The translations under genes were made by a program, and so were the position numbers. From the NCBI GenBank assembly GCA_016929695.1, contig JAFGII010000102.1:1-39875 (forward strand): 39,875 bases of DNA, written 5' to 3'. The notes under the pieces are model-generated. The model saw only the letters and a program-made list of their open reading frames with translations, was not told the DNA's origin and did no database searches. Every line of letters begins with the position of its first letter. The stretch's first letter is position 1. The DNA comes from Ignavibacteria bacterium (GTDB lineage Bacteria > Bacteroidota > Ignavibacteria > Tepidaquicellales > Tepidaquicellaceae). Shown piece by piece: positions 371 to 29,449 of this stretch.

Positions 371-2062
371 ATGTTTAAAGGACATCCGAAAGGACTATAT
401 GTACTTGCACTGTCCAATATGGGGGAGCGTTTTGGCTACTACACGATGCTTGCAATTTTCACATTATTCATCGAAGCAAAACTGGGATTATCACAATCTG
501 ATATTGGTCAGGTCTGGGGGATATTTTTAGCGGCTGTATATGCATTACCGCTTATCGGAGGGTTTCTTGCCGACCGAATGGGGTACGGAAAGGTAGTAAT
601 AGCCGGTATAATCGTAATGTTTATCGGTTATATACTGCTCTCATATCCGCCGGCAAGCGTGGCTTTGCTTTTCACATCGCTCTTTATTATCGCGCTCGGA
701 ACGGGCTTATTCAAAGGCAATATGGTTGTTCTTCTCGGAAATCTTTACGAAGACCCCCAGTATAATAAACTGCAGGATAATGCTTTTAATATCTACTATA
801 TGGGTATTAACGTAGGTGCATTTTTTGCTCCGTTTGCTGCAGTTGGTATGCGGGATTTATTCCTTTCATTCGATAAATTTACATACGATGCAAATATACC
901 GAGAGCGGCACATAATTTTTTAAAAGACCCTGTAAACGGCGTTACGGGTGACGCTCTTGTTAAGTTTAAACAAATCGCTGCTGATATGACGGGTAATGCC
1001 GCAGTTGACTTAAAATTATTCAGCGAGCAGTATCTCGAATCCTTGAGTTCCGCGTACAATATGGGCTTTGCGGTTGCCGCCGCCGCAATTATTGTTTCAT
1101 TTATAATTTTTCTTGTTTTCAAGAAGCATTACAAACATGTAGACGTAATTCACAAGAAATCCGAAAGGGCAAAAACAACTGTTGAATTAACGCCTAAACA
1201 AACAAAGGACAGAATAATTGCATTAGTACTCGTTTTCATAACAGTAATTTTCTTCTGGATGGCATTCCATCAGAACGGACTTGTATTAACATACATTGCA
1301 AAAAATTACACAGTCGGTGCATTAAGTAAATTAAATTATGTTTTATTTGACCTTCCCGCATTGCTTTCACTAATCGCGGTAATTATGGGAACTATATTTT
1401 TGATTTTGAAAAGTTCCACGGCGCTAAGAAGGGGCATCGGAGCCGTTCTGGCAATCGCCGGTGTAATAATATTAGTAATGAGGTACAGCGGCTTCGATGC
1501 AATCAATAAAATCGGACCGGAAACATTTCAGGCATTCAATCCGATTTTCGTGGTATTTTTGACACCTATTGTAATCGCATTTTTTGCAATGATGACGAGG
1601 AAGGGAAAAGAAATTTCTTCGCCGAGAAAAATCGGATACGGAATGTTCATTGCGGCAATCGCATATATTATTCTTGTAGTTGCGGCATTAATCGGAAAGG
1701 ACGGCGGAATGCTGGACAGTCCAATGGCGATAGCAAAAACAGGAGGTTCGGTATCGGATGTTCTTCTCTCACCGTACTGGTTGATTTCGACTTATTTCAC
1801 TTTGACAATCGCAGAGTTATTCCTGTCACCGATGGGACTTTCGTTCGTGGCAAAAGTAGCACCGCCGAAAGTCAAAGGTTTAATGCAGGGCGGATGGCTT
1901 TTTGCGACAGCACTTGGAAATTATCTCTCCGGAGTTATTGCATATCCTTATGAGCATCTCGAATTATGGCAGACTTTTCTTATACTTGTGATAACTTCAT
2001 TAATATCAGGAATATTTATCTTTTCAGTAATCAGACGCCTTGAGGCGGCAACTAAATCATAA
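371..2062 (+). CDS. POT/PTR family proton-coupled peptide transporter
   Basis: This 563-aa inner-membrane protein belongs to the POT (PTR2) branch of the major facilitator superfamily, which imports di- and tripeptides with protons. The N-terminus has the family signature NMGERFGYYTM at residues 16-26, equivalent to the ExxERFxYY motif of TM1. About twelve or more hydrophobic segments follow, with charged loops near residues 250-280 and 400-420. The first glutamate of the signature is Asn16 here, while Glu19 and Arg20 are kept. It is followed after 22 bases by an OPT transporter and then by peptidase T, so peptide uptake is the likely role. Some POT members carry other substrates, so the substrate is inferred. 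Confidence 0.93.
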   Translation: MFKGHPKGLYVLALSNMGERFGYYTMLAIFTLFIEAKLGLSQSDIGQVWGIFLAAVYALPLIGGFLADRMGYGKVVIAGIIVMFIGYILLSYPPASVALLFTSLFIIALGTGLFKGNMVVLLGNLYEDPQYNKLQDNAFNIYYMGINVGAFFAPFAAVGMRDLFLSFDKFTYDANIPRAAHNFLKDPVNGVTGDALVKFKQIAADMTGNAAVDLKLFSEQYLESLSSAYNMGFAVAAAAIIVSFIIFLVFKKHYKHVDVIHKKSERAKTTVELTPKQTKDRIIALVLVFITVIFFWMAFHQNGLVLTYIAKNYTVGALSKLNYVLFDLPALLSLIAVIMGTIFLILKSSTALRRGIGAVLAIAGVIILVMRYSGFDAINKIGPETFQAFNPIFVVFLTPIVIAFFAMMTRKGKEISSPRKIGYGMFIAAIAYIILVVAALIGKDGGMLDSPMAIAKTGGSVSDVLLSPYWLISTYFTLTIAELFLSPMGLSFVAKVAPPKVKGLMQGGWLFATALGNYLSGVIAYPYEHLELWQTFLILVITSLISGIFIFSVIRRLEAATKS

Positions 2063-2084: not shown

Positions 2085-4070
2085 ATGTCTCACGAACCAA
2101 CAGGTGCAGTAAAAGGTTTACCGGAAAATTCTTACCGTGAACTGAAAAAAGGAGAAGTTTATACTCCTATAATGTTACCTGACAAAAAATACCCTGAAAT
2201 TTCCGCATATTCGGTAATAATGGGACTTGTCATGGCAGTATTATTTTCAGCCGCAGCGGCATACCTCGGATTGAAAATCGGACAGGTATTTGAAGCGGCA
2301 ATACCGATTGCTATTATTGCGGTAGGTGCATCATTCCTGACGAAAAGGAAAAATGCTCTTGGTGAAAATATTATTATTCAGTCAATCGGAGCGAGTTCCG
2401 GACTGGTTGTAGCAGGTGCGATATTTACACTGCCCGCACTTTATATATTAGGACTTGAAGCGGAATACTATCAGGTATTTCTTGCATCATTATTCGGAGC
2501 AATACTCGGGATGCTGTTCCTAATACCGTTCAGAAAATATTTCGTAGCGGATATGCACGGCAAGTTACCGTTCCCTGAAGCGACTGCAACAACCGAGGTT
2601 CTTATATCAGGAGAAAAAGGCGGCGAGCAGGCAAAACTGCTTCTAATCGCAGGACTAATTGGCGGTATTTATGATTTTGTCATTGCTACATTCGGATGGT
2701 GGAGCGAAGTATTCACAACCAGGGTTATACCCTATGGAGAAGTACTTGCTGACAAATTAAAACTTGTATTTAAGATAAACGTTGGCTCGGCAGTTCTCGG
2801 ATTGGGATATATCGTTGGGTTGAAATACGCAGCAATCATAGCGGCAGGTTCATTTGTAGGATGGTATTTCGTGATTCCGATTGTCAGTCACTTTGCACCC
2901 GGATTAACAGCGCCGGTAGGAGCAGGTGTTACGACATTGGTCGGAGCAATGAGCGCAGAAGAAATATTTACAAATTACGTAAGACCAATCGGTATCGGTG
3001 GAATTGCGATGGCAGGCATAATCGGAATTATTAAGTCATCGAAAATTATAAAAGAAGCATTCGGACTTGCTATAACCGAAATAGCAGGTAAACGTGAAGT
3101 AAACAGGGAAGTAGCAAGAACGCAAAGAGATATTGCAATGAAAATTATTGTAATAGGACTGTTAGTTTGTGCAGTTTTAATATTTGTGTTTTTCCAGTTT
3201 GGAGTAGTACATAATTTATTACAGGCATTTGTAGGACTTTTAATTGTATTTATAATTGCATTTTTATTTACAACCGTTGCAGCAAATGCAATTGCAATTG
3301 TAGGCACGAATCCCGTATCCGGAATGACATTAATGACACTGATATTAACATCGGTTGTTATGGTATCAATAGGGCTATCGGGAACTACGGGAATGATAGC
3401 GGCGCTGATTATCGGCGGAGTTGTCTGCACGGCATTATCAATGGCAGGCGGAGCAATAACGGATTTAAAAATCGGATACTGGCTCGGCTCTACTCCCGCG
3501 AAACAGGAATCAATGAAGATGCTCGGAAGCGTGTTATCGGCGGCAACGGTCGGCGGTGTTATTATTATCTTAAATCAGACATACGGATTCACGGGAAAAG
3601 ATGCGCTTGTAGCGCCTCAGGCAAATGCTATGGCAGCGGTAATAGGACCGATGATGACAGGGCAGGCGGCACCGTGGATGCTTTATCTTGCCGGAGCGCT
3701 GATGTCTCTGATTTTGACGATGATTGGAGTGCCGGCACTTGCATTTGCTCTCGGGATGTTTATTCCGCTTCAACTCAACACACCGATTTTAATCGGCGGA
3801 ATAATTGCAAAAATAGTTGCTACAAGAAGCAAGGATGAAAAGATTAACAATGCAAGGAGAGAAAGAGGAACGTTAATTGCTTCGGGCTTCATTGCAGGCG
3901 GTGCGCTGATGGGTGTGCTGAGTGCGTTTTTAAGGTTCGGCGGAATTAATTTCGTGGATGAGCACTGGATAGAGTCGAATGCAGCGGAACTGCTGGCGCT
4001 GGTGATGTTTTGTGCGCTGATAGCGTATTTTGTATGGGATTCCCTCCGCGGAAAACCGGATGCAGACTAG
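2085..4070 (+). CDS. OPT family oligopeptide transporter
   Basis: This 661-aa polytopic membrane protein belongs to the OPT family of oligopeptide (and in plants metal-chelate) transporters. The N-terminal wording GLPENSYRELKKGEVYTP at residues 11-28 is typical of the bacterial OPT branch. It is followed by roughly 14-16 hydrophobic segments, including the glycine- and alanine-rich AAAAYLGLKIGQVFEAAIP around residues 56-74. The length matches bacterial family members. It sits 22 bases after the POT gene behind a good ribosome site, so both are probably co-transcribed. With the downstream peptidase T it points to growth on peptides. The exact substrate cannot be read from the sequence. Confidence 0.92.
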   Translation: MSHEPTGAVKGLPENSYRELKKGEVYTPIMLPDKKYPEISAYSVIMGLVMAVLFSAAAAYLGLKIGQVFEAAIPIAIIAVGASFLTKRKNALGENIIIQSIGASSGLVVAGAIFTLPALYILGLEAEYYQVFLASLFGAILGMLFLIPFRKYFVADMHGKLPFPEATATTEVLISGEKGGEQAKLLLIAGLIGGIYDFVIATFGWWSEVFTTRVIPYGEVLADKLKLVFKINVGSAVLGLGYIVGLKYAAIIAAGSFVGWYFVIPIVSHFAPGLTAPVGAGVTTLVGAMSAEEIFTNYVRPIGIGGIAMAGIIGIIKSSKIIKEAFGLAITEIAGKREVNREVARTQRDIAMKIIVIGLLVCAVLIFVFFQFGVVHNLLQAFVGLLIVFIIAFLFTTVAANAIAIVGTNPVSGMTLMTLILTSVVMVSIGLSGTTGMIAALIIGGVVCTALSMAGGAITDLKIGYWLGSTPAKQESMKMLGSVLSAATVGGVIIILNQTYGFTGKDALVAPQANAMAAVIGPMMTGQAAPWMLYLAGALMSLILTMIGVPALAFALGMFIPLQLNTPILIGGIIAKIVATRSKDEKINNARRERGTLIASGFIAGGALMGVLSAFLRFGGINFVDEHWIESNAAELLALVMFCALIAYFVWDSLRGKPDAD

Positions 4071-4076
4071 TTTTTT

Positions 4077-4190
4077 GCATCAGATACACGGATGGACACT
4101 GACTCGCCACGGCAAGCTGATAAATACTGAAAAAAATTATATTTGTGTTATTCAGTGTTATTCAGTGTAATCAGTGTATCGGATACGTTA
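4077..4190. repeat. inverted phrase-like repeat before the GxxExxY gene
   Basis: Positions 4077-4102 and 4161-4188 are near inverted copies of one phrase. The left arm read on the minus strand and the right arm both contain tcagtgt followed, after a few bases, by gtgtatc. Between them lie a gccacggc mini-palindrome (4105-4112) and a tandem ttcagtgtta unit (4151-4170). The right arm runs almost into the start of the downstream gene. The phrase matches the family that recurs at 6957-7001, 12990-13025 and 23659-23709. Confidence 0.7.
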
Positions 4191-4212
4191 CGAATGTATA
4201 AATATAAAAATA

Positions 4213-4611
4213 ATGATGCAGTTATTACATCAGAAACTGACAGAAAAAATTATAAAGGCGTTTTATGAAGTTCATCGTATTTTAGGATATGGATTTCTTG
4301 AGAAGGTTTACAAAAATGCATTATTTTACGAACTTACTTCAAACGGATTAAGTTGTGAAAAAGAGAAACAAATAAACGTATTATATAAAGATATTATTGC
4401 AGGAGATTATTTTGCAGATATTGTGGTAGAAAATAAAGTAATACTTGAATTAAAAGTTGGCGATAAAATACTTCCTGAATACGAATATCAGTTAATGAAT
4501 TATTTGAGAGCAAGCGAAATTGAAGTTGGTTACGTATTGTTATTCGGACAAAAAGCGTTGTATGACAGAAAAATTTATACAAACGATAAAAAAAAGTTTT
4601 TTAATAAATAA
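4213..4611 (+). CDS. GxxExxY family protein, PD-(D/E)XK nuclease-like
   Basis: This protein of about 132 aa carries the family signature GYGFLEKVY (GxxExxY) and, further on, FADIVVENKVILELKV. In the latter an aspartate is followed by E-L-K, the usual PD-(D/E)XK nuclease core (Pfam PDDEXK_3). The biochemical role of this family is not established. The open frame reaches back to a GTG at 4174, but that start lies in the upstream repeat. The adjacent ATGs at 4213 and 4216 before QLLHQKLTEKI fit the family better. The gene lies between the OPT transporter and pepT, flanked by repeats, which looks like an insertion into a peptide-use operon. Nuclease activity is inferred from the motif only. Confidence 0.85.
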   Translation: MMQLLHQKLTEKIIKAFYEVHRILGYGFLEKVYKNALFYELTSNGLSCEKEKQINVLYKDIIAGDYFADIVVENKVILELKVGDKILPEYEYQLMNYLRASEIEVGYVLLFGQKALYDRKIYTNDKKKFFNK

Positions 4612-4623
4612 ATAAATAATGCT

Positions 4624-5862
4624 ATGCGGAAAGAAGTATTAGAAAGGTTTCTGAGGTATATAAGCGTGGATACGCAGTCGGATGAGAATTCACCGACAAC
4701 ACCGAGTACATCAAAGCAATTTGATTTAGCGAAGATGCTGGTTAAAGAACTGAAGGAAATCGGTTTAAAAGATGCGGCAGTTGACGAGAACTGTTATGTA
4801 ATGGCGACACTGCCTGCAAACACTGACAAGAAGGTTCCGGTTATCGGATTCATATCACACATTGATACCAGTCCCGATATGAGCGGAGCAAACGTAAAGC
4901 CGCAGATAATCGAGGATTATCAGGGCGGAGATATCTTGTTAAATAAAGAGAACAACATCGTGCTATCACCGAAAGTATTTCCCGAACTCGAGCATCACAT
5001 TGGTCAGACATTAATCACGACTGATGGAACAACACTGCTCGGTGCAGACGACAAAGCCGGAATTGCTGAAATCATGACTGCAATTTCATATCTTGTAAAA
5101 CATCCGGAAATCAAGCACGGCACGATTAAGGTCGGATTCACGCCTGACGAAGAAATCGGCAGGGGCGTGGATAAATTCGACGTGAAAAAATTCGGTGCTG
5201 ATTATGCATACACGATTGACGGCGGTGAATTAGGCGAACTTGAATATGAAAATTTCAATGCAGCGAAGGCAACGATTAAAATTCAAGGCAGAAACGTTCA
5301 TCCCGGATATGCAAAACACAAAATGCAGAATGCGATTCTTATGGCAATGGAATTCAATGCAATGCTGCCTGTATTTGACAGACCTGAATTCACGCAGGAC
5401 TACGAAGGATTCTATCATTTAATCAAAATGGAAGGCACGGTGGAGAATTCGATGCTGGTTTATATCGTGCGTGACCACGACAGGAAAATATTTGAACAGC
5501 GAAAAATATTAATGGAGAAGACTGCAGAATATATGAATCACAGGTACGGCAAGGGTACATTTGACCTTGAACTTGTTGACCAGTATTTCAATATGCGAGA
5601 GATGGTAGAGCCGGTAAAATTCGTAGTTGACATTGCGGAAGAGGCAATGATACAGGCGGGCATAGAGCCGAAAATAATGCCGATTCGCGGTGGAACAGAC
5701 GGTTCGAGGTTGTCTTATATGGGCTTACCGTGTCCGAATATATTTGCAGGCGGAATAAATTTCCACGGGAAATTTGAATTCACATCGGTAGAGACGATGG
5801 AAAAAGCGGCGGAAACGATTGTGAAGATTGCGGAGATATACGGGAAGAGACCGGTAGCGTGA
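4624..5862 (+). CDS. pepT: peptidase T (tripeptide aminopeptidase)
   Basis: This 412-aa cytosolic zinc aminopeptidase of family M20B removes N-terminal residues from tripeptides. Visible M20 landmarks are SHIDTSPD at residues 78-85 (metal ligand His79 and catalytic Asp81), LGADDKAG at 139-146 (bridging Asp), PDEEIG at 174-179 (general base and metal-binding glutamates), the TIDGG segment at 197-201, and FHGKFE near the end (last His ligand). The length is normal. Its place after POT and OPT transporters suggests it degrades the imported peptides. It starts 12 bases after the GxxExxY gene with no clear ribosome site. Confidence 0.96.
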
Positions 5863-5869
5863 ATGATTT

Positions 5870-6115
5870 AATTATGAATTATGAATTAAAGATATAACCG
5901 CAACGGCGCAGCGAGCGCAGCGCATACGGGATGCATAAGGAACGCGGAAAACGCGGAACAGCGGAATATCGCGGAATACAAGTGTTACGCATCAGATACG
6001 CGGAACATATTTAATGTTAAATGATAAATTTTAAATGTTAAATGAGAAAATAACCGCAACGACGCAAAGGACGCAACGCATACGGGACGAGGACTTGCCG
6101 AGGCTAACGGAAGAT
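5870..6115. repeat. phrase-like intergenic repeat cluster
   Basis: This gap is almost entirely repeat modules. They are an AT-rich attatgaatta phrase (5870-5892), a GC-rich aaccgcaacg phrase ending in gcatacggg (5896-5930), a ggaacgcgga phrase (5939-6003), an atgttaaatg phrase (6011-6048) and a second aaccgcaacg phrase (6052-6087). The last shares an exact 16-base match (6067-6082) with 12955-12970. The two GC-rich copies lie in direct orientation about 156 bases apart. I see no terminator after pepT. Confidence 0.8.
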
Positions 6116-6892: not shown

Positions 6893-7228
6893 TATTAATT
6901 ATTCCTTTAGTTTGTAAATTCTGTATAACATAGAAAAAATTATAAACATCATAACGCATTCGGCACACAGATGACACTGATTAGACAGATTTACACGGAT
7001 TCGATTAAAAAAGAAAAATTTTAATTTAAAACTATGCATGGCAAACATTATTTTCAATGTTATTAGTTTTTATCCGATACTACGATATTTTATTGCTGAC
7101 CTGAACAATTTCACGGGCAGATTATCTCTTAACACTAAAGGCACTAAATTATACAATGAAACCACTTAAGGGGTATTAAGATACGGAACTTTCTTAAATT
7201 GGAATAGCAAAATTGTGAAATGTTTGAT
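6893..7228. repeat. 336-base gap with composite repeat
   Basis: Positions 6906-7001 form a composite repeat of about 96 bases. It matches 23612-23709 over its whole length and in the same orientation, sharing blocks such as aaaaattataaac and acactgattagac. Positions 7131-7172 carry a phrase built on cactaaaggcactaa, related to copies at 12880-12896, 15041-15066 and 28888-28913. The remainder is AT-rich with no gene. The promoter of the methyltransferase must lie just right of 6892. Confidence 0.75.
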
Positions 7229-9093: not shown

Positions 9094-9772
9094 AATTTAT
9101 ATAATTATTTATTCGTTAATATAATAAATTCCGGTTTTTTGTTCAATTTAGTAAGAATATTTATGAGCAATCGAATGTTCAATTAACATCTGATGTAAAA
9201 TTATAAATGTAAAATGTGCAAAATACTTATCGGAACGCAGAAGACACGGAATAATGGAATCTCGCTGAAATTGCATCAGGCAACAGGTTTACGGATAGAG
9301 GCGAAATAACACGGATTACAAAATATAATTTTGAATTATGAATTTAGAATTAATAAAACATAACCCAGACAAACCGGAACCAAACATTTCGAATTTCACG
9401 CAAAGAGGCAGAGACCGCAAAGAAATATATTATTTAAAATATTTTATTGTTTTTCTTGTAATATTTTAGAGTTTTTCGAGTTAAAAATGAGTAATGCATA
9501 TTTTTCTTTGCCGTTTTGCGCAGAATTTGAGAACTAATGGAATAACCGCAGCGACGCTACGGACGCAACTCATATGGACCGCTGAAAACGCGGAGCAACT
9601 GAATGTCGCGGAAAACAAACAGGACGCATTCGGAACACTGATTAAACAGATTGAAACAGAATTCGCCGCGGCGAACGGATTACACAATAAAATTTTAATT
9701 TTTGTACAGATAAAACGGTATTTAAAAGAAAAAATAAATGAAGGTTATATTAAAACGTTACTGTCAATAAAT
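9094..9772. repeat. 680-base gap packed with phrase-like repeats
   Basis: Modules in order: an AT-rich aaaatgtaaaat phrase (9190-9222); a ggaacgcaga phrase (9231-9290) with ggaatctcgctgaa at 9256-9269, also found exactly at 23811-23824; an aataacacggatta phrase (9305-9318), found exactly at 15019-15032; tgaattatgaatt (9330-9358); a cacgcaaagaggcag phrase (9397-9424); a phrase at 9521-9541 that is an exact 21-base inverted copy of 11198-11218; aaccgcagcgacgct (9543-9577); and cggaacactgatta (9622-9660). An open frame at 9494-9781 consists of these modules and is not called as a gene. Confidence 0.82.
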
Positions 9773-10606
9773 TTAATCTGATGTGTTATTTACATATTCC
9801 CTGAATTCCGAAATAAATTTTCCAAAATCGGTACTATAGATTTTCCGGAAAATTCTGTCGTTATCGGGATTGTCAATAAGTGCTTTCATATATGTCAGGA
9901 ATTTTTCTAATCCGTATTTTTGAATGAGATAATTCACTATGCAGGCAAATTCTGAATAAACAAATGCAATGCTGTTTTCAATATCGAGATTTATTTTATC
10001 TTCGTCATTTGTTCCATAGTATCCGGGGGGCATAAAATATCCTTTTCTGATTAATTCATAAGTTTTTTGTTTTGACGGATAAAAAGAAGTACCCATCTGA
10101 TTTGAACTATAGACTGCTATGCCTTCGAGAAGCCATTTGGGATATCTATACCCGTTAATAATTCCCGTGTGCTGATAGATTAACGAATGGGATAATTCGT
10201 GGCGAATATAGATTTCAAGGGAAATTTTATTTTCCGATGCTTCGCGCAATGCCCAGGGGGAAATAACCAGCCTGCCATTATAGAATACGCAGAATCTTGC
10301 TTTTGAGGGTGAACGTTGAATATAACTGCTGCTGTCTTTAAATATGAATATTTCGGGTTTGCGTATGAATTTCAACTGATGAAAATTTTCTACTGCGGGG
10401 ATTAGGGTGTCTACTCTTTCGAAGTCCGAAAATCCGGTTTCATTTTGTACATAGATAATCGTATTCTGCATTTCATATTTTGAGAAGCCGATTTTCAAGG
10501 GCGAATAAGGGAATAATTTTCCGTAAAGAAAAGAATAACTCAAAAGTATAATAATTATAACGAGAATTATAAATATTATCCGCTTAATTAAATTACTTTT
10601 GCTCAT
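9773..10606 (-). CDS. membrane-anchored MA-clan zinc metallopeptidase
   Basis: This 277-aa protein has an N-terminal hydrophobic anchor (residues 9-25, IIFIILVIIIILLSYSF), so the rest is probably periplasmic. The zinc signature HELSH is at residues 136-140 (HExxH). A third glutamate ligand follows at Glu161 in WLLEGIAVY, the gluzincin spacing of the peptidase_MA family. The region from about residue 55 to 130 fits the N-terminal part of that family. The substrate is unknown. It stands alone, with repeats downstream and a 176-base gap upstream. Confidence 0.85.
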   Translation of the reverse strand: MSKSNLIKRIIFIILVIIIILLSYSFLYGKLFPYSPLKIGFSKYEMQNTIIYVQNETGFSDFERVDTLIPAVENFHQLKFIRKPEIFIFKDSSSYIQRSPSKARFCVFYNGRLVISPWALREASENKISLEIYIRHELSHSLIYQHTGIINGYRYPKWLLEGIAVYSSNQMGTSFYPSKQKTYELIRKGYFMPPGYYGTNDEDKINLDIENSIAFVYSEFACIVNYLIQKYGLEKFLTYMKALIDNPDNDRIFRKIYSTDFGKFISEFREYVNNTSD

Positions 10607-10782: not shown

Positions 10783-11112
10783 ATGAGCGGGAAAGTAAAA
10801 CTGAAATACCATCATCTTGGGATACCGACAAACGAGCCGAGAGAGGGAGAAGTGTATCTCAAGGATTACAAGGTATATTATTGCGGATATGAGAACAGCG
10901 ATTACGGTATTGAATGGATGAGATATGAAAAGGATTGTGAATTACCTGAAATTGTAAAAACAAGACCACATCTTGCGTTTGAGGTTGATGATATATATGA
11001 AGCAATAAAAGGAAAGAAGGTGATAATAGAACCGAACAGTCCGTCCGAAGGCGTTGTTGTTGCGTTTATTGAGGAGGACGGAATGCCGATAGAGTTTCTG
11101 CAGATAGGATAG
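10783..11112 (+). CDS. small VOC/glyoxalase-like protein
   Basis: This 109-aa protein begins with KLKYHHLGIPTNEPREGE. It contains HLAFEVDDIYEAI and ends with VVVAFIEEDGMPIEFLQ. These are the two half-motifs of a vicinal oxygen chelate (VOC) fold, with His and Glu as candidate metal ligands. It matches a short, widely conserved bacterial family without an assigned reaction. It probably works as a dimer, as single-module VOC proteins usually do. The start chosen is the ATG before SGKVKLK. An overlapping frame at 10680-10892 has no family features. Confidence 0.8.
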   Translation: MSGKVKLKYHHLGIPTNEPREGEVYLKDYKVYYCGYENSDYGIEWMRYEKDCELPEIVKTRPHLAFEVDDIYEAIKGKKVIIEPNSPSEGVVVAFIEEDGMPIEFLQIG

Positions 11113-11133: not shown

Positions 11134-11240
11134 AACCGTCCGCCACGGCAAACGCAATGGACGCAGCGTATATGGAGGCGATTCAATTAAGAATTAATCC
11201 ATTAGTTCTCAAATTCTGTGTAAACCGGAAAAAATAATAG
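11134..11240. repeat. phrase-like intergenic repeats
   Basis: Positions 11134-11176 are a diverged copy of the aaccgcaacg...ggacgcagcg phrase with an inserted gccacggc mini-palindrome, the same eight bases as at 4105-4112. Positions 11191-11240 carry the phrase that recurs at 23602-23640. Its core 11198-11218 is exactly inverted at 9521-9541. Positions 11269-11310 hold a loose cactaaag phrase. No terminator is evident for the gene ending at 11112 or for rsgA, which converge here. Confidence 0.75.
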
Positions 11241-11364
11241 ATTCAAAATTTATATGCATTACTCATTGATAACACTAAAGTCAAAAAAATTTACATTAAG
11301 TCCACGAAAATATTTTAAGAAATATTTTTCTTTTTGGATTTTGCTGTCGGGAGTTTTTGTGTGT

Positions 11365-12896: not shown

Positions 12897-13025
12897 AAAT
12901 TTTTGAGTCAAATATATAATTTGAAATTATTACCGTCCGCCTGGGCGAATCGCGAAGGACGCAACGCATAATTTAATGATAAGGAAGGCATAGAGAACAC
13001 GGATTAGACTGATGTACACGGATTT
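12880..13025. repeat. phrase-like repeats overlapping the ygbA 3' end
   Basis: Positions 12880-12897 are the phrase attaccactaagtacactt, which supplies the last codons and stop of the gene. Positions 12931-12970 are a GC-rich phrase with an exact 16-base match to 6067-6082 at 12955-12970. Positions 12990-13025 are gaacacggattagactgatg, the same family as 6957-7001 and 23659-23709. No open frame of note lies here. Confidence 0.75.
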
Positions 13026-13119
13026 ATTTTATTTTTAATTTTTGGGTGTTTGAGTTGAATTGTAATATATGAAAGTGTATCTTATAAAATAAATAATTTT
13101 TAGAATTTTAATATAATAA

Positions 13120-16679: not shown

Positions 16680-16785
16680 TTAAGATTTAAAAATTAATAA
16701 TTAAGAATACGAACAGGACGCATACGGAACGCGGAATACACGGAACAAAGGAATCTCACGAAATACGAGTATTACGCACCAGAAA
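16680..16785. repeat. phrase-like intergenic repeats
   Basis: An AT-rich aaaattaataattaag phrase (16684-16708) is followed by aggacgcatacggaacgcgg and a long module to 16785. That module parallels 5939-6003 almost piece by piece, with ggaatctcacgaaatacgag and attacgcaccag in place of the corresponding pieces there. Confidence 0.75.
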
Positions 16786-23533: not shown

Positions 23534-24093
23534 TACTGAGTAATATATAACTTTAATGTCAATTCCGAAATGAAATAATTAATTTACAACAGTTCGATTT
23601 ATAATTAATCATTTAGTTCTGAAATTCCGTGTAAAATGGTGAAAAATTATAAACCGGCATTACGAACTCGGAACACTGATAACACTGATTAGACTGATTT
23701 TAACGGATTTTTTTTAAAAATTTTAAAAACACTTTAATTCGGGTTTGAACGGGTTATGAATTAAGAATATTGAGGGAAGGTATTTCAGAGCGCGGAAAAC
23801 GCATAGAAGCGGAATCTCGCTGAATACTATAATTGCGATATTGGGAACAGTGAAAACGCTAACTGACTTGGAATTACACAGATTATTTTTTTTGAAAAAA
23901 TTAATCATACTTTGGTTCAGGTTTGAAATAGATGTGAATTTGGATAAAATGTTAATTCGTGAATATATAATAATAAAGTCAATAACGAAATGGAATAATT
24001 TATTTAACTTTTTGCGGGAATTATTTTTGCATAATATTTTACTTGACTTATAAAAAGTTTTTAGATAAATTTTTAAAGAATAAAAAATGAAAA
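23534..24093. repeat. 560-base gap with composite and other repeats
   Basis: Positions 23612-23709 are the second copy of the composite repeat seen at 6906-7001. It extends left into the phrase shared with 11201-11240. Positions 23786-23850 carry gagcgcggaaaacgcataga and ggaatctcgctgaa (23811-23824, an exact match to 9256-9269). From 23880 to 24060 the DNA is AT-rich with no recognisable phrase. Open frames here (23723-24100 minus, 23841-24053 plus) follow the repeats and show no family features. Confidence 0.8.
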
Positions 24094-28737: not shown

Positions 28738-29449
28738 ATACCTGATTTTATTCAATATAAATATTTTAATTAAAAACAACAATGAAAACAATGCTCGGTG
28801 TTCAATGTGTAATGTACGAAATTAGAACACTGAAGATGCAGTATAGTTCTGTGTCCAAGAAACGAAATGACACGGTTTATATTTTACCTCTTGGGGCACC
28901 GAGGACACTTAGATTTTATATTATTTGCTTTTAATATATAACTCGGTGAAGCCGGAACTAAAAAATAATATATTTCATCCCGCGTCCAAGGGACAAAGAG
29001 TCAAAGACTGCAAAGAAAAATATTATTTTAAATATTTTTATGGACTTTGAAAATTTTAGTGTCTATACTGAAAAAAAGAGTAATGCGGGTCTATTTAATA
29101 ATTTAATTCTCTTGCTCCCGTGGGCACGGAATGCAGAATTTTGAGAGTAAATGAATATCCCTGACAATCCGGGACCAATTTTTTTAATCCGTGTTTTTAT
29201 GTGTCATTCCGCGTTCATCCGTGAATCTGATAGGTAATCATATTTTCCGTATGACTCCGCTATTCCGCCTCATTAGTGGATTGATAGTAAAATAATGTCG
29301 TTTTTCTCAGAATTTGCGGATTAATGAAATAAGTGTTCTTTGCGGTCTTTGCTCCTTTGCGGTTTTAGCGTGAAAAGAGTTAATGTTCAAGAAATAAGTA
29401 TATATTTTTTCCGTTTGAAAAAAGTTAATTTTGTTAAAAAAAGCGGATA
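28738..29449. repeat. 700-base repeat island
   Basis: This gap has no gene and is mostly phrase-like repeats. They are tgttcaatgtgtaatgt (28799-28815); the composite at 28866-28913, matching 15019-15066 at 38 of 48 bases; tcccgcgtccaagggacaaa and following (28978-29022); ttaatccgtgtttttatgtg with attccgcgttcatccgtg (29185-29232, opposite orientation to the 5.9 kb copies); and gttctttgcggtctttgctc with ctttgcggttttagcg (29336-29373, the aaccgcaaag phrase inverted). Copies in both orientations sit in one gap. Confidence 0.8.

Follow-up and report, generated by a model that had tools for sequence, protein, structure and literature searches.

The closest described system to the one analyzed here is the 23S rRNA IVS, which in Coxiella burnetii is a 428-nt element, inserted in a transcribed region, with an ORF for the ~14-kDa S23p protein in the loop of an inverted-repeat stem (28 bp, -143 kcal/mol) and with heptameric GACAGAT repeats ahead of the start codon; it has been called selfish (PMC4990558). 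The arrangement that we describe around genes of the GxxExxY family is like the IVS in size, plan and pre-start heptamers and, at most loci but not in the window, in its predicted stem. Its hosts, however, are protein-coding operons, its ORF encodes an unrelated PD-(D/E)XK nuclease, and each arm is a phrase of several degenerate units in a dialect that follows the subtype, with gene-less copies dispersed in the genome. The GxxExxY element in our window (the whole stretch of 39,875 nucleotides that was analyzed, from an Ignavibacteria bacterium) does not qualify as a 23S rRNA IVS because it has no Rfam match, is flanked by OPT and pepT genes and has an ORF that matches PF13366, not S23 (PF05635). 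By analogy, we consider that the GxxExxY element works like an IVS but should not be filed as one, and excision by RNase III is only inferred for it.

REP/RAYT systems likewise have dispersed intergenic palindromes tied to one small gene per genome. In the GxxExxY arrangement, however, the gene sits in the loop of the arms, the arms are degenerate units of period 9, and the associated protein is of the PD-(D/E)XK type and not an HUH (Y1) transposase, so that REP/RAYT membership was not met. Homing endonuclease genes, whether in group I introns or free-standing, are also small, sporadic nuclease ORFs in sense orientation with occupied and empty sites. The GxxExxY case differs from these in its repeated entry without a conserved coding target, in its dispersed gene-less arms and in the lack of a catalytic intron in the window, an Rfam search of which returned neither an RNA family nor such an intron.

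In the literature searched, where PDDEXK_3, palindrome, IVS and the repeat sequences were also used, the GxxExxY name is mentioned in only two papers and no link between GxxExxY and repeats was found; preprints were not covered and prior work is not excluded. A CTCTGTGTTCTCTGTGGTG phrase does adjoin a described invertible promoter of Bacteroides fragilis, with primers at BF2782 (PMC3090145), which we judged incidental. What is shown here is that GxxExxY genes and their arms co-occur, are jointly absent at orthologous junctions, are matched in type and lie in sense between cistrons.

A GxxExxY gene splits the POT-OPT-pepT locus

The features of the window are as follows.

371..2062, + strand: peptide transporter of the POT family, with which the interrupted locus opens (profile searches)
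2085..4070, + strand: OPT family oligopeptide transporter, upstream neighbor (profile searches)
4079..4102, + strand: forward phrase arm ATCAGATACACGGATGGACACTGA, pairing with 4162-4184 (0/500 shuffles as good)
4140..4195, - strand: reverse phrase of three CACTGA-type units, AT dialect, whose 4162-4184 portion pairs with the forward arm
4213..4611, + strand: GxxExxY / PDDEXK_3 nuclease gene, GYG subtype, 132 aa from ATG 4213 (profile matches)
4624..5862, + strand: pepT, downstream neighbor, starting 12 nt past the nuclease stop codon (profile searches)
5907..6087, + strand: gene-less phrases after pepT, CGCAGCG / CGCGGAAAACGCGGAA type (repeat families D1-D4)
6966..7002, + strand: gene-less phrase CACAGATGACACTGATTAGACAGATTTACACGGATT, dialect as in the window arm (D5-D7)
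9233..9663, + strand: gene-less phrases (D1, D2, D6)
12993..13031, + strand: gene-less phrase GAGAACACGGATTAGACTGATGTACACGGATTT (D6, D7)
16713..16783, + strand: gene-less phrase (D1, D2)
23674..23716, + strand: gene-less phrase CACTGATAACACTGATTAGACTGATTTTAACGGATTTTT (D5-D7)
29180..29370, - strand: gene-less phrases (I18, I22)

The window gene is a member of TIGR04256/PF13366, as its protein exceeds both curated cut-offs in profile searches (TIGR04256 GxxExxY: E 7e-36, 123.1 bits against a cut-off of 35; PF13366: E 1e-34, 119.8 bits against 22). A sequence-only reading of the window had placed this gene beside inverted phrases and inside an interrupted POT-OPT-pepT locus, and had taken a longer frame from GTG to be translated repeat. 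Both claims held: the gene at 4213-4611 lies between OPT and pepT, splitting the locus, and the open frame from GTG (4174-4611, 145 aa) begins inside the reverse phrase. The start of the gene is likely ATG 4213, 17-25 nt past the inverted phrase pair. The pairing score of the arm at 4079-4102 with 4162-4184 on the opposite strand was reached by none of 500 shuffles, the RNA fold of 4071-4212 has a z of -2.3, and the best match to the arm elsewhere in the window falls within the region 6966..7002.

This local finding proves nothing by itself because a phrase pair is present in 8 of the 23 intergenic gaps of the window. Taken alone, the proximity of gene and phrases here is weak and not significant, and significance comes solely from the cross-genome tests. 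A downstream arm is absent at the window gene, whose inverted-flank score of 10 equals the control median of 10. As part of the selfish-element reading set out below, we are inclined to regard the window copy as an element that has an upstream hairpin and lacks its right arm.

Elsewhere in the window, three long inverted-repeat pairs (72-84%) at 9399-9545 and 11194-11344 surround two genes, one Peptidase_MA-like (9773-10606) and one an unannotated ORF of 109 aa (10783-11112). These pairs could represent a larger bracket or an inversion scar.

Inverted flanks across genomes

Loci were chosen by protein match only, with flanks ignored, and the upstream 250 nt of each gene was compared with the reverse complement of its downstream 250 nt, a score of >=15 being counted as inverted flanks. 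The median score was 20 for GxxExxY loci compared with 10 for control ORFs from the same loci and 10 for mismatched pairs (p ~1e-35). Inverted flanks were present at 81 of 102 GxxExxY loci (79%) but at only 24 of 374 control ORFs (6%; p = 3e-49), and a phrase pair stood on both sides at 42/102 and 4/374, respectively (p = 2e-27). Among loci from many named phyla, the score was reached at 54 of 71. ParE toxin genes, which served as a control because they too are small and sporadic, had inverted flanks in none of 24 cases. No inverted bracket was seen at 21% of loci, the window gene included.

When the flanks were read, one recurring plan was seen across 32 loci, illustrated in gene orientation by L009, ACCACAGAGAACACAGAGTTGAGCACAGAG - gene - CTCTGAGTCCTCAGTGTGTACTCTGTGTCCTCTGTGGT. 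A further 80 loci agree with it, drawn from the Bacteroidota, Acidobacteriota, Planctomycetes, Chloroflexi, Deltaproteobacteria, Verrucomicrobia, Nitrospirae, Leptospiraceae and other groups. Terminal inverted repeats that would form one stem around the ORF are found at the 81 of 102 homologous loci and at L311, and are absent at the window locus; the RNA of L311 is predicted to fold at -130 kcal/mol (z -6.9) into a long stem with the ORF in its loop.

The gene agrees in orientation with co-oriented neighbors in 75 of 76 cases, as against 177 of 221 for control middle genes (p = 1e-5). Probably the element depends on transcription by the host, or else its entry or its selection takes place in the sense direction. 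The sequence-only reading had further stated that many database GxxExxY proteins carry mis-called N-terminal extensions made of translated repeats. This was partly borne out: an upstream start >=25 codons away exists at 19 of 176 loci, and the extension holds a translated phrase in 9 of these (e.g., EPQRHRGHREKRG, TRIDTDETERHR).

At L015, L021, L347 and L349 whole phrase hairpins form tandem arrays that directly adjoin GxxExxY genes, possibly pointing to slippage or repeated conversion. At L153 and L001 (G000:C107 29191-30870), an IVP element, a long TAACCACTAATCACTAACC array and then the other GxxExxY gene of genome G000 follow one another ~1 kb apart, an arrangement that we read as elements clustering at one site.

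Other bracketed gene families

S23/IVP (PF05635) genes in the relatives have inverted flanks in 17 of 22 cases (77%), with a different phrase grammar. We had to reject S23/IVP as a negative control, as it is itself a second bracketed family; since this bracketing occurs in the same relatives, the parallel with the IVS is therefore stronger. These four-helix-bundle genes lie in protein operons (L143-L172, e.g., L151, L153, L156 and L162) with arms such as GTATTGAGTATTG, TAGTGATTAGTGGTTAG and GAGTAACGAGTAACG. GIY-YIG genes, which we set aside, have inverted flanks in just 11 of 26 cases, direct repeats or tRNA 3' ends being more frequent. The small GIY-YIG genes that we observed (L281-L310) often adjoin the 3' end of a tRNA, accompanied by a second copy of its 3' portion, or are surrounded by TCATCCTGAGCGAAGCGAAGGA-type repeats, and they may be a third bracketed or repeat-linked family.

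Subtype, dialect and fold

GPG-type proteins have CRCNRAG arms by 52 to 4, and GYG-type proteins, which include that of the window, have CRCNRAT arms by 55 to 1 (p = 1e-25). Genomes G029, G036 and G041 hold both subtypes, each with its own dialect. This match fits recognition of the arms by the protein, although lineages that inherited both parts together would look alike, and with no binding data recognition stays a possibility. GPG-type genes at L341 and L342 (genus g85) are surrounded by yet another dialect, CATATAAGACATTTAAGGTCATATAAG, whose arms fall outside the CRCNRAK grammar.

The AlphaFold2 model of the window protein has a pLDDT of 92, and its nearest Foldseek matches are Cas4 SSO0001 (4ic1), lambda exonuclease and Hjc. 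The family motifs are GxxE, D, ExK and QxxxY, with catalytic residues invariant in alignment A1, and they are intact at 172 of 176 loci. By predicted fold and residues we place the protein in the RecB/Cas4 branch of the PD-(D/E)XK superfamily; its activity is inferred. Though Cas4/RecB nucleases, lambda exonuclease and Hjc have the predicted fold and motifs in common with GxxExxY, the latter is about 125 aa long and, in the window, has neither the four-cysteine FeS site nor the CRISPR context of Cas4. Cas4 identity was rejected for the window protein, which has at most one Cys and OPT/pepT neighbors with no cas genes. By analogy with these enzymes, which act on DNA ends and junctions, a hairpin or cruciform would suit as substrate.

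Filled and empty orthologous junctions

Orthologous junctions are mostly in one of two states, filled (gene and phrases) or empty (neither). At nuoE-nuoF, gene and phrases are present in four species of genus g8, the junction is short and clean in one g8 species and about 22 other genomes, and a lone right arm is left in G006. Between G009 and G028, nuoE is 94% identical but the inserted genes are merely 55% identical, and therefore the nuoE-nuoF junction was entered, or its element exchanged, more than once. At carA-carB in g17, two species have GxxExxY elements and two others S23/IVP elements.

The MetAP-X junction was compared across 30 species of one genus: 11 have a GKG-type gene with CACGAATT arms (AT dialect), 9 a GPG gene with AG arms, 4 are in another state, and 6 are empty and phrase-free. 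At least 13 state changes are required on the tree of the downstream gene. L362 and L365 are a near-identical filled/empty sister pair at this junction. Neither a target-site duplication nor an exact junction was found there, the spacer having been replaced and not simply interrupted; by the criterion of a target-site duplication at both ends, this pair does not fit a classical TIR transposon. Arms at orthologous sites showed no significant covariation (21 versus 17, p = 0.087).

At OPT-pepT, the junction of our window gene, both gene and phrases are absent from G001, G002 (both of the window's genus), G006 and G007. All five g8 species hold a GxxExxY-derived gene there that is free of phrases and has lost its GxxE and ExK residues, and the four exceptions to motif conservation noted above are g8 OPT-pepT copies (L037, L039, L042 and L043). 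Loss of the active site and loss of the arms thus coincide, in a single lineage only, and the derived gene may have been domesticated.

Phrase load and gene number

The phrase pattern CRCDRAK x3 has its own backward control, and this control is near zero in most genomes; after use on 99 relatives the pattern was fixed and then applied to 149 genomes that belong to the phylum but not to the class. GxxExxY is carried by 77 of the 99 relatives, in 1-12 copies each. In a sample of 198 genomes from the phylum, 101 have it, with a maximum of 12 copies in one genome. In the relatives, phrase number follows GxxExxY number with a rho of 0.66 (median 26 phrases with the gene, 1 without; within-family permutation p = 0.0006), and the partial correlation is 0.57 for GxxExxY once genome size, IVP and ParE are accounted for, compared with -0.12 for IVP. 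In the 149 genomes rho is 0.68 (median 7 versus 0 phrases; within-family p = 0.0024) and changes little, to 0.66, without one large gut-type family.

In the window's genus, the gene is missing from G001 and G002, whose phrase counts are 0-1; G000 has 29 phrases. Most phrases are away from the gene, and none of the 29 in G000 is within 1.5 kb of its two GxxExxY genes. Phrases without the gene occur in 3 of the 99 relatives and in 5 genomes outside the class (such exceptions include G066, G068, G042, G227 and G236).

The central claim of the sequence-only reading, that enzyme and repeats are linked, would have been refuted by a lack of enrichment around GxxExxY genes or by a lack of correlation between gene and repeat presence. 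Neither came true: enrichment in other genomes was strongly positive, for inverted flanks and for phrase pairs on both sides, and the presence correlation was positive in both genome sets, gene-less genomes having a median of 0-1 phrases.

Discussion

A major question arising from these observations is "What moves the gene and its arms?" The explanation towards which we lean is that they make up a selfish element of ~0.5 kb, like a 23S rRNA IVS, that encodes a nuclease of RecB/Cas4 fold. Its unit would consist of a left arm with 3-6 degenerate units of 7 nt at a spacing of about 9 nt, a nuclease ORF of ~125 aa and a right arm that is an inverted copy of the left. The ORF would be transcribed by the host operon. 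Modeling predicts that the transcript forms a single long stem, its loop occupied by the ORF; this stem may let the insert be tolerated in, or excised from, the mRNA, as RNase III does for the IVS. What the nuclease recognizes may be its own arms in hairpin, cruciform or RNA-DNA form, although there are no binding or cleavage data, and it may start copying or conversion by which elements are inserted, swapped and homogenized. The scattered gene-less phrases would be non-autonomous or decayed copies. That the nuclease drives movement is an inference, as nothing shows its contact with the arms.

Could the nuclease instead be a passenger? Gene and arms might be one unit that is moved by other machinery, such as host recombination or gene conversion between phrases, reverse transcription or replication slippage, with the nuclease as cargo that serves, for example, in defense or RNA processing. 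This is possible: S23/IVP proteins have no nuclease fold and are bracketed likewise, the tandem hairpin arrays suggest slippage or conversion, and two gene types swap at the MetAP-X junction. Against it, dialect tracks nuclease subtype even inside single genomes, each ORF family has its own grammar, and the phrase load of a genome tracks GxxExxY and not IVP number. The sequence-only reading had offered both alternatives, that the nuclease mobilizes the phrases or travels with them, and between these the matter is undecided.

A different reading is that the phrases are independent REP-like hairpins and GxxExxY a homing-type gene that enters the loop of a hairpin of the right dialect. Gene-less hairpins are indeed numerous, and the match of subtype and dialect is equally expected from target preference. 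However, genomes without the gene are nearly phrase-free, and the empty junctions are entirely so (nuoE-nuoF in ~22 genomes, MetAP-X in 6 species, and OPT-pepT in G001, G002, G006 and G007); because of these empty junctions we dropped the pre-existing target, which we regard as unlikely. Least probable of all is that there is no link, intergenic space simply tolerating phrases and a promiscuous small gene alike. The phrase pairs in so many gaps of the window would agree with this, but it is contradicted by the control ORFs, the ParE genes, the mismatched flanks, the orientation bias and the subtype-dialect match, and random permissive sites were considered and dropped.

The selfish-element reading has a bolder form. 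These would be minimal mobile elements of a class that has not been described before and that spans phyla; in them, a ~125-aa PD-(D/E)XK nuclease would recognize as its own the degenerate 7-nt arms specific to its subtype, and would copy the whole arm-ORF-arm unit sense-wise into operon junctions. We would expect this form to fail slightly more readily than to hold.

GxxExxY is a widespread family with no known role, and a dispersed repeat class of its own gives it a testable function. The tie between gene and repeats explains mis-called protein starts in databases and offers an origin for repeats scattered through many genomes, and with it the long-unexplained 23S rRNA IVS elements become members of a broader class, that of small ORF elements bracketed by repeats within operons. 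If the bolder form is true, it would explain an orphan nuclease family that ranks among the commonest, together with a large part of the CACAGAG/CACGGAT/CGCAAAG repeats dispersed in bacterial genomes.
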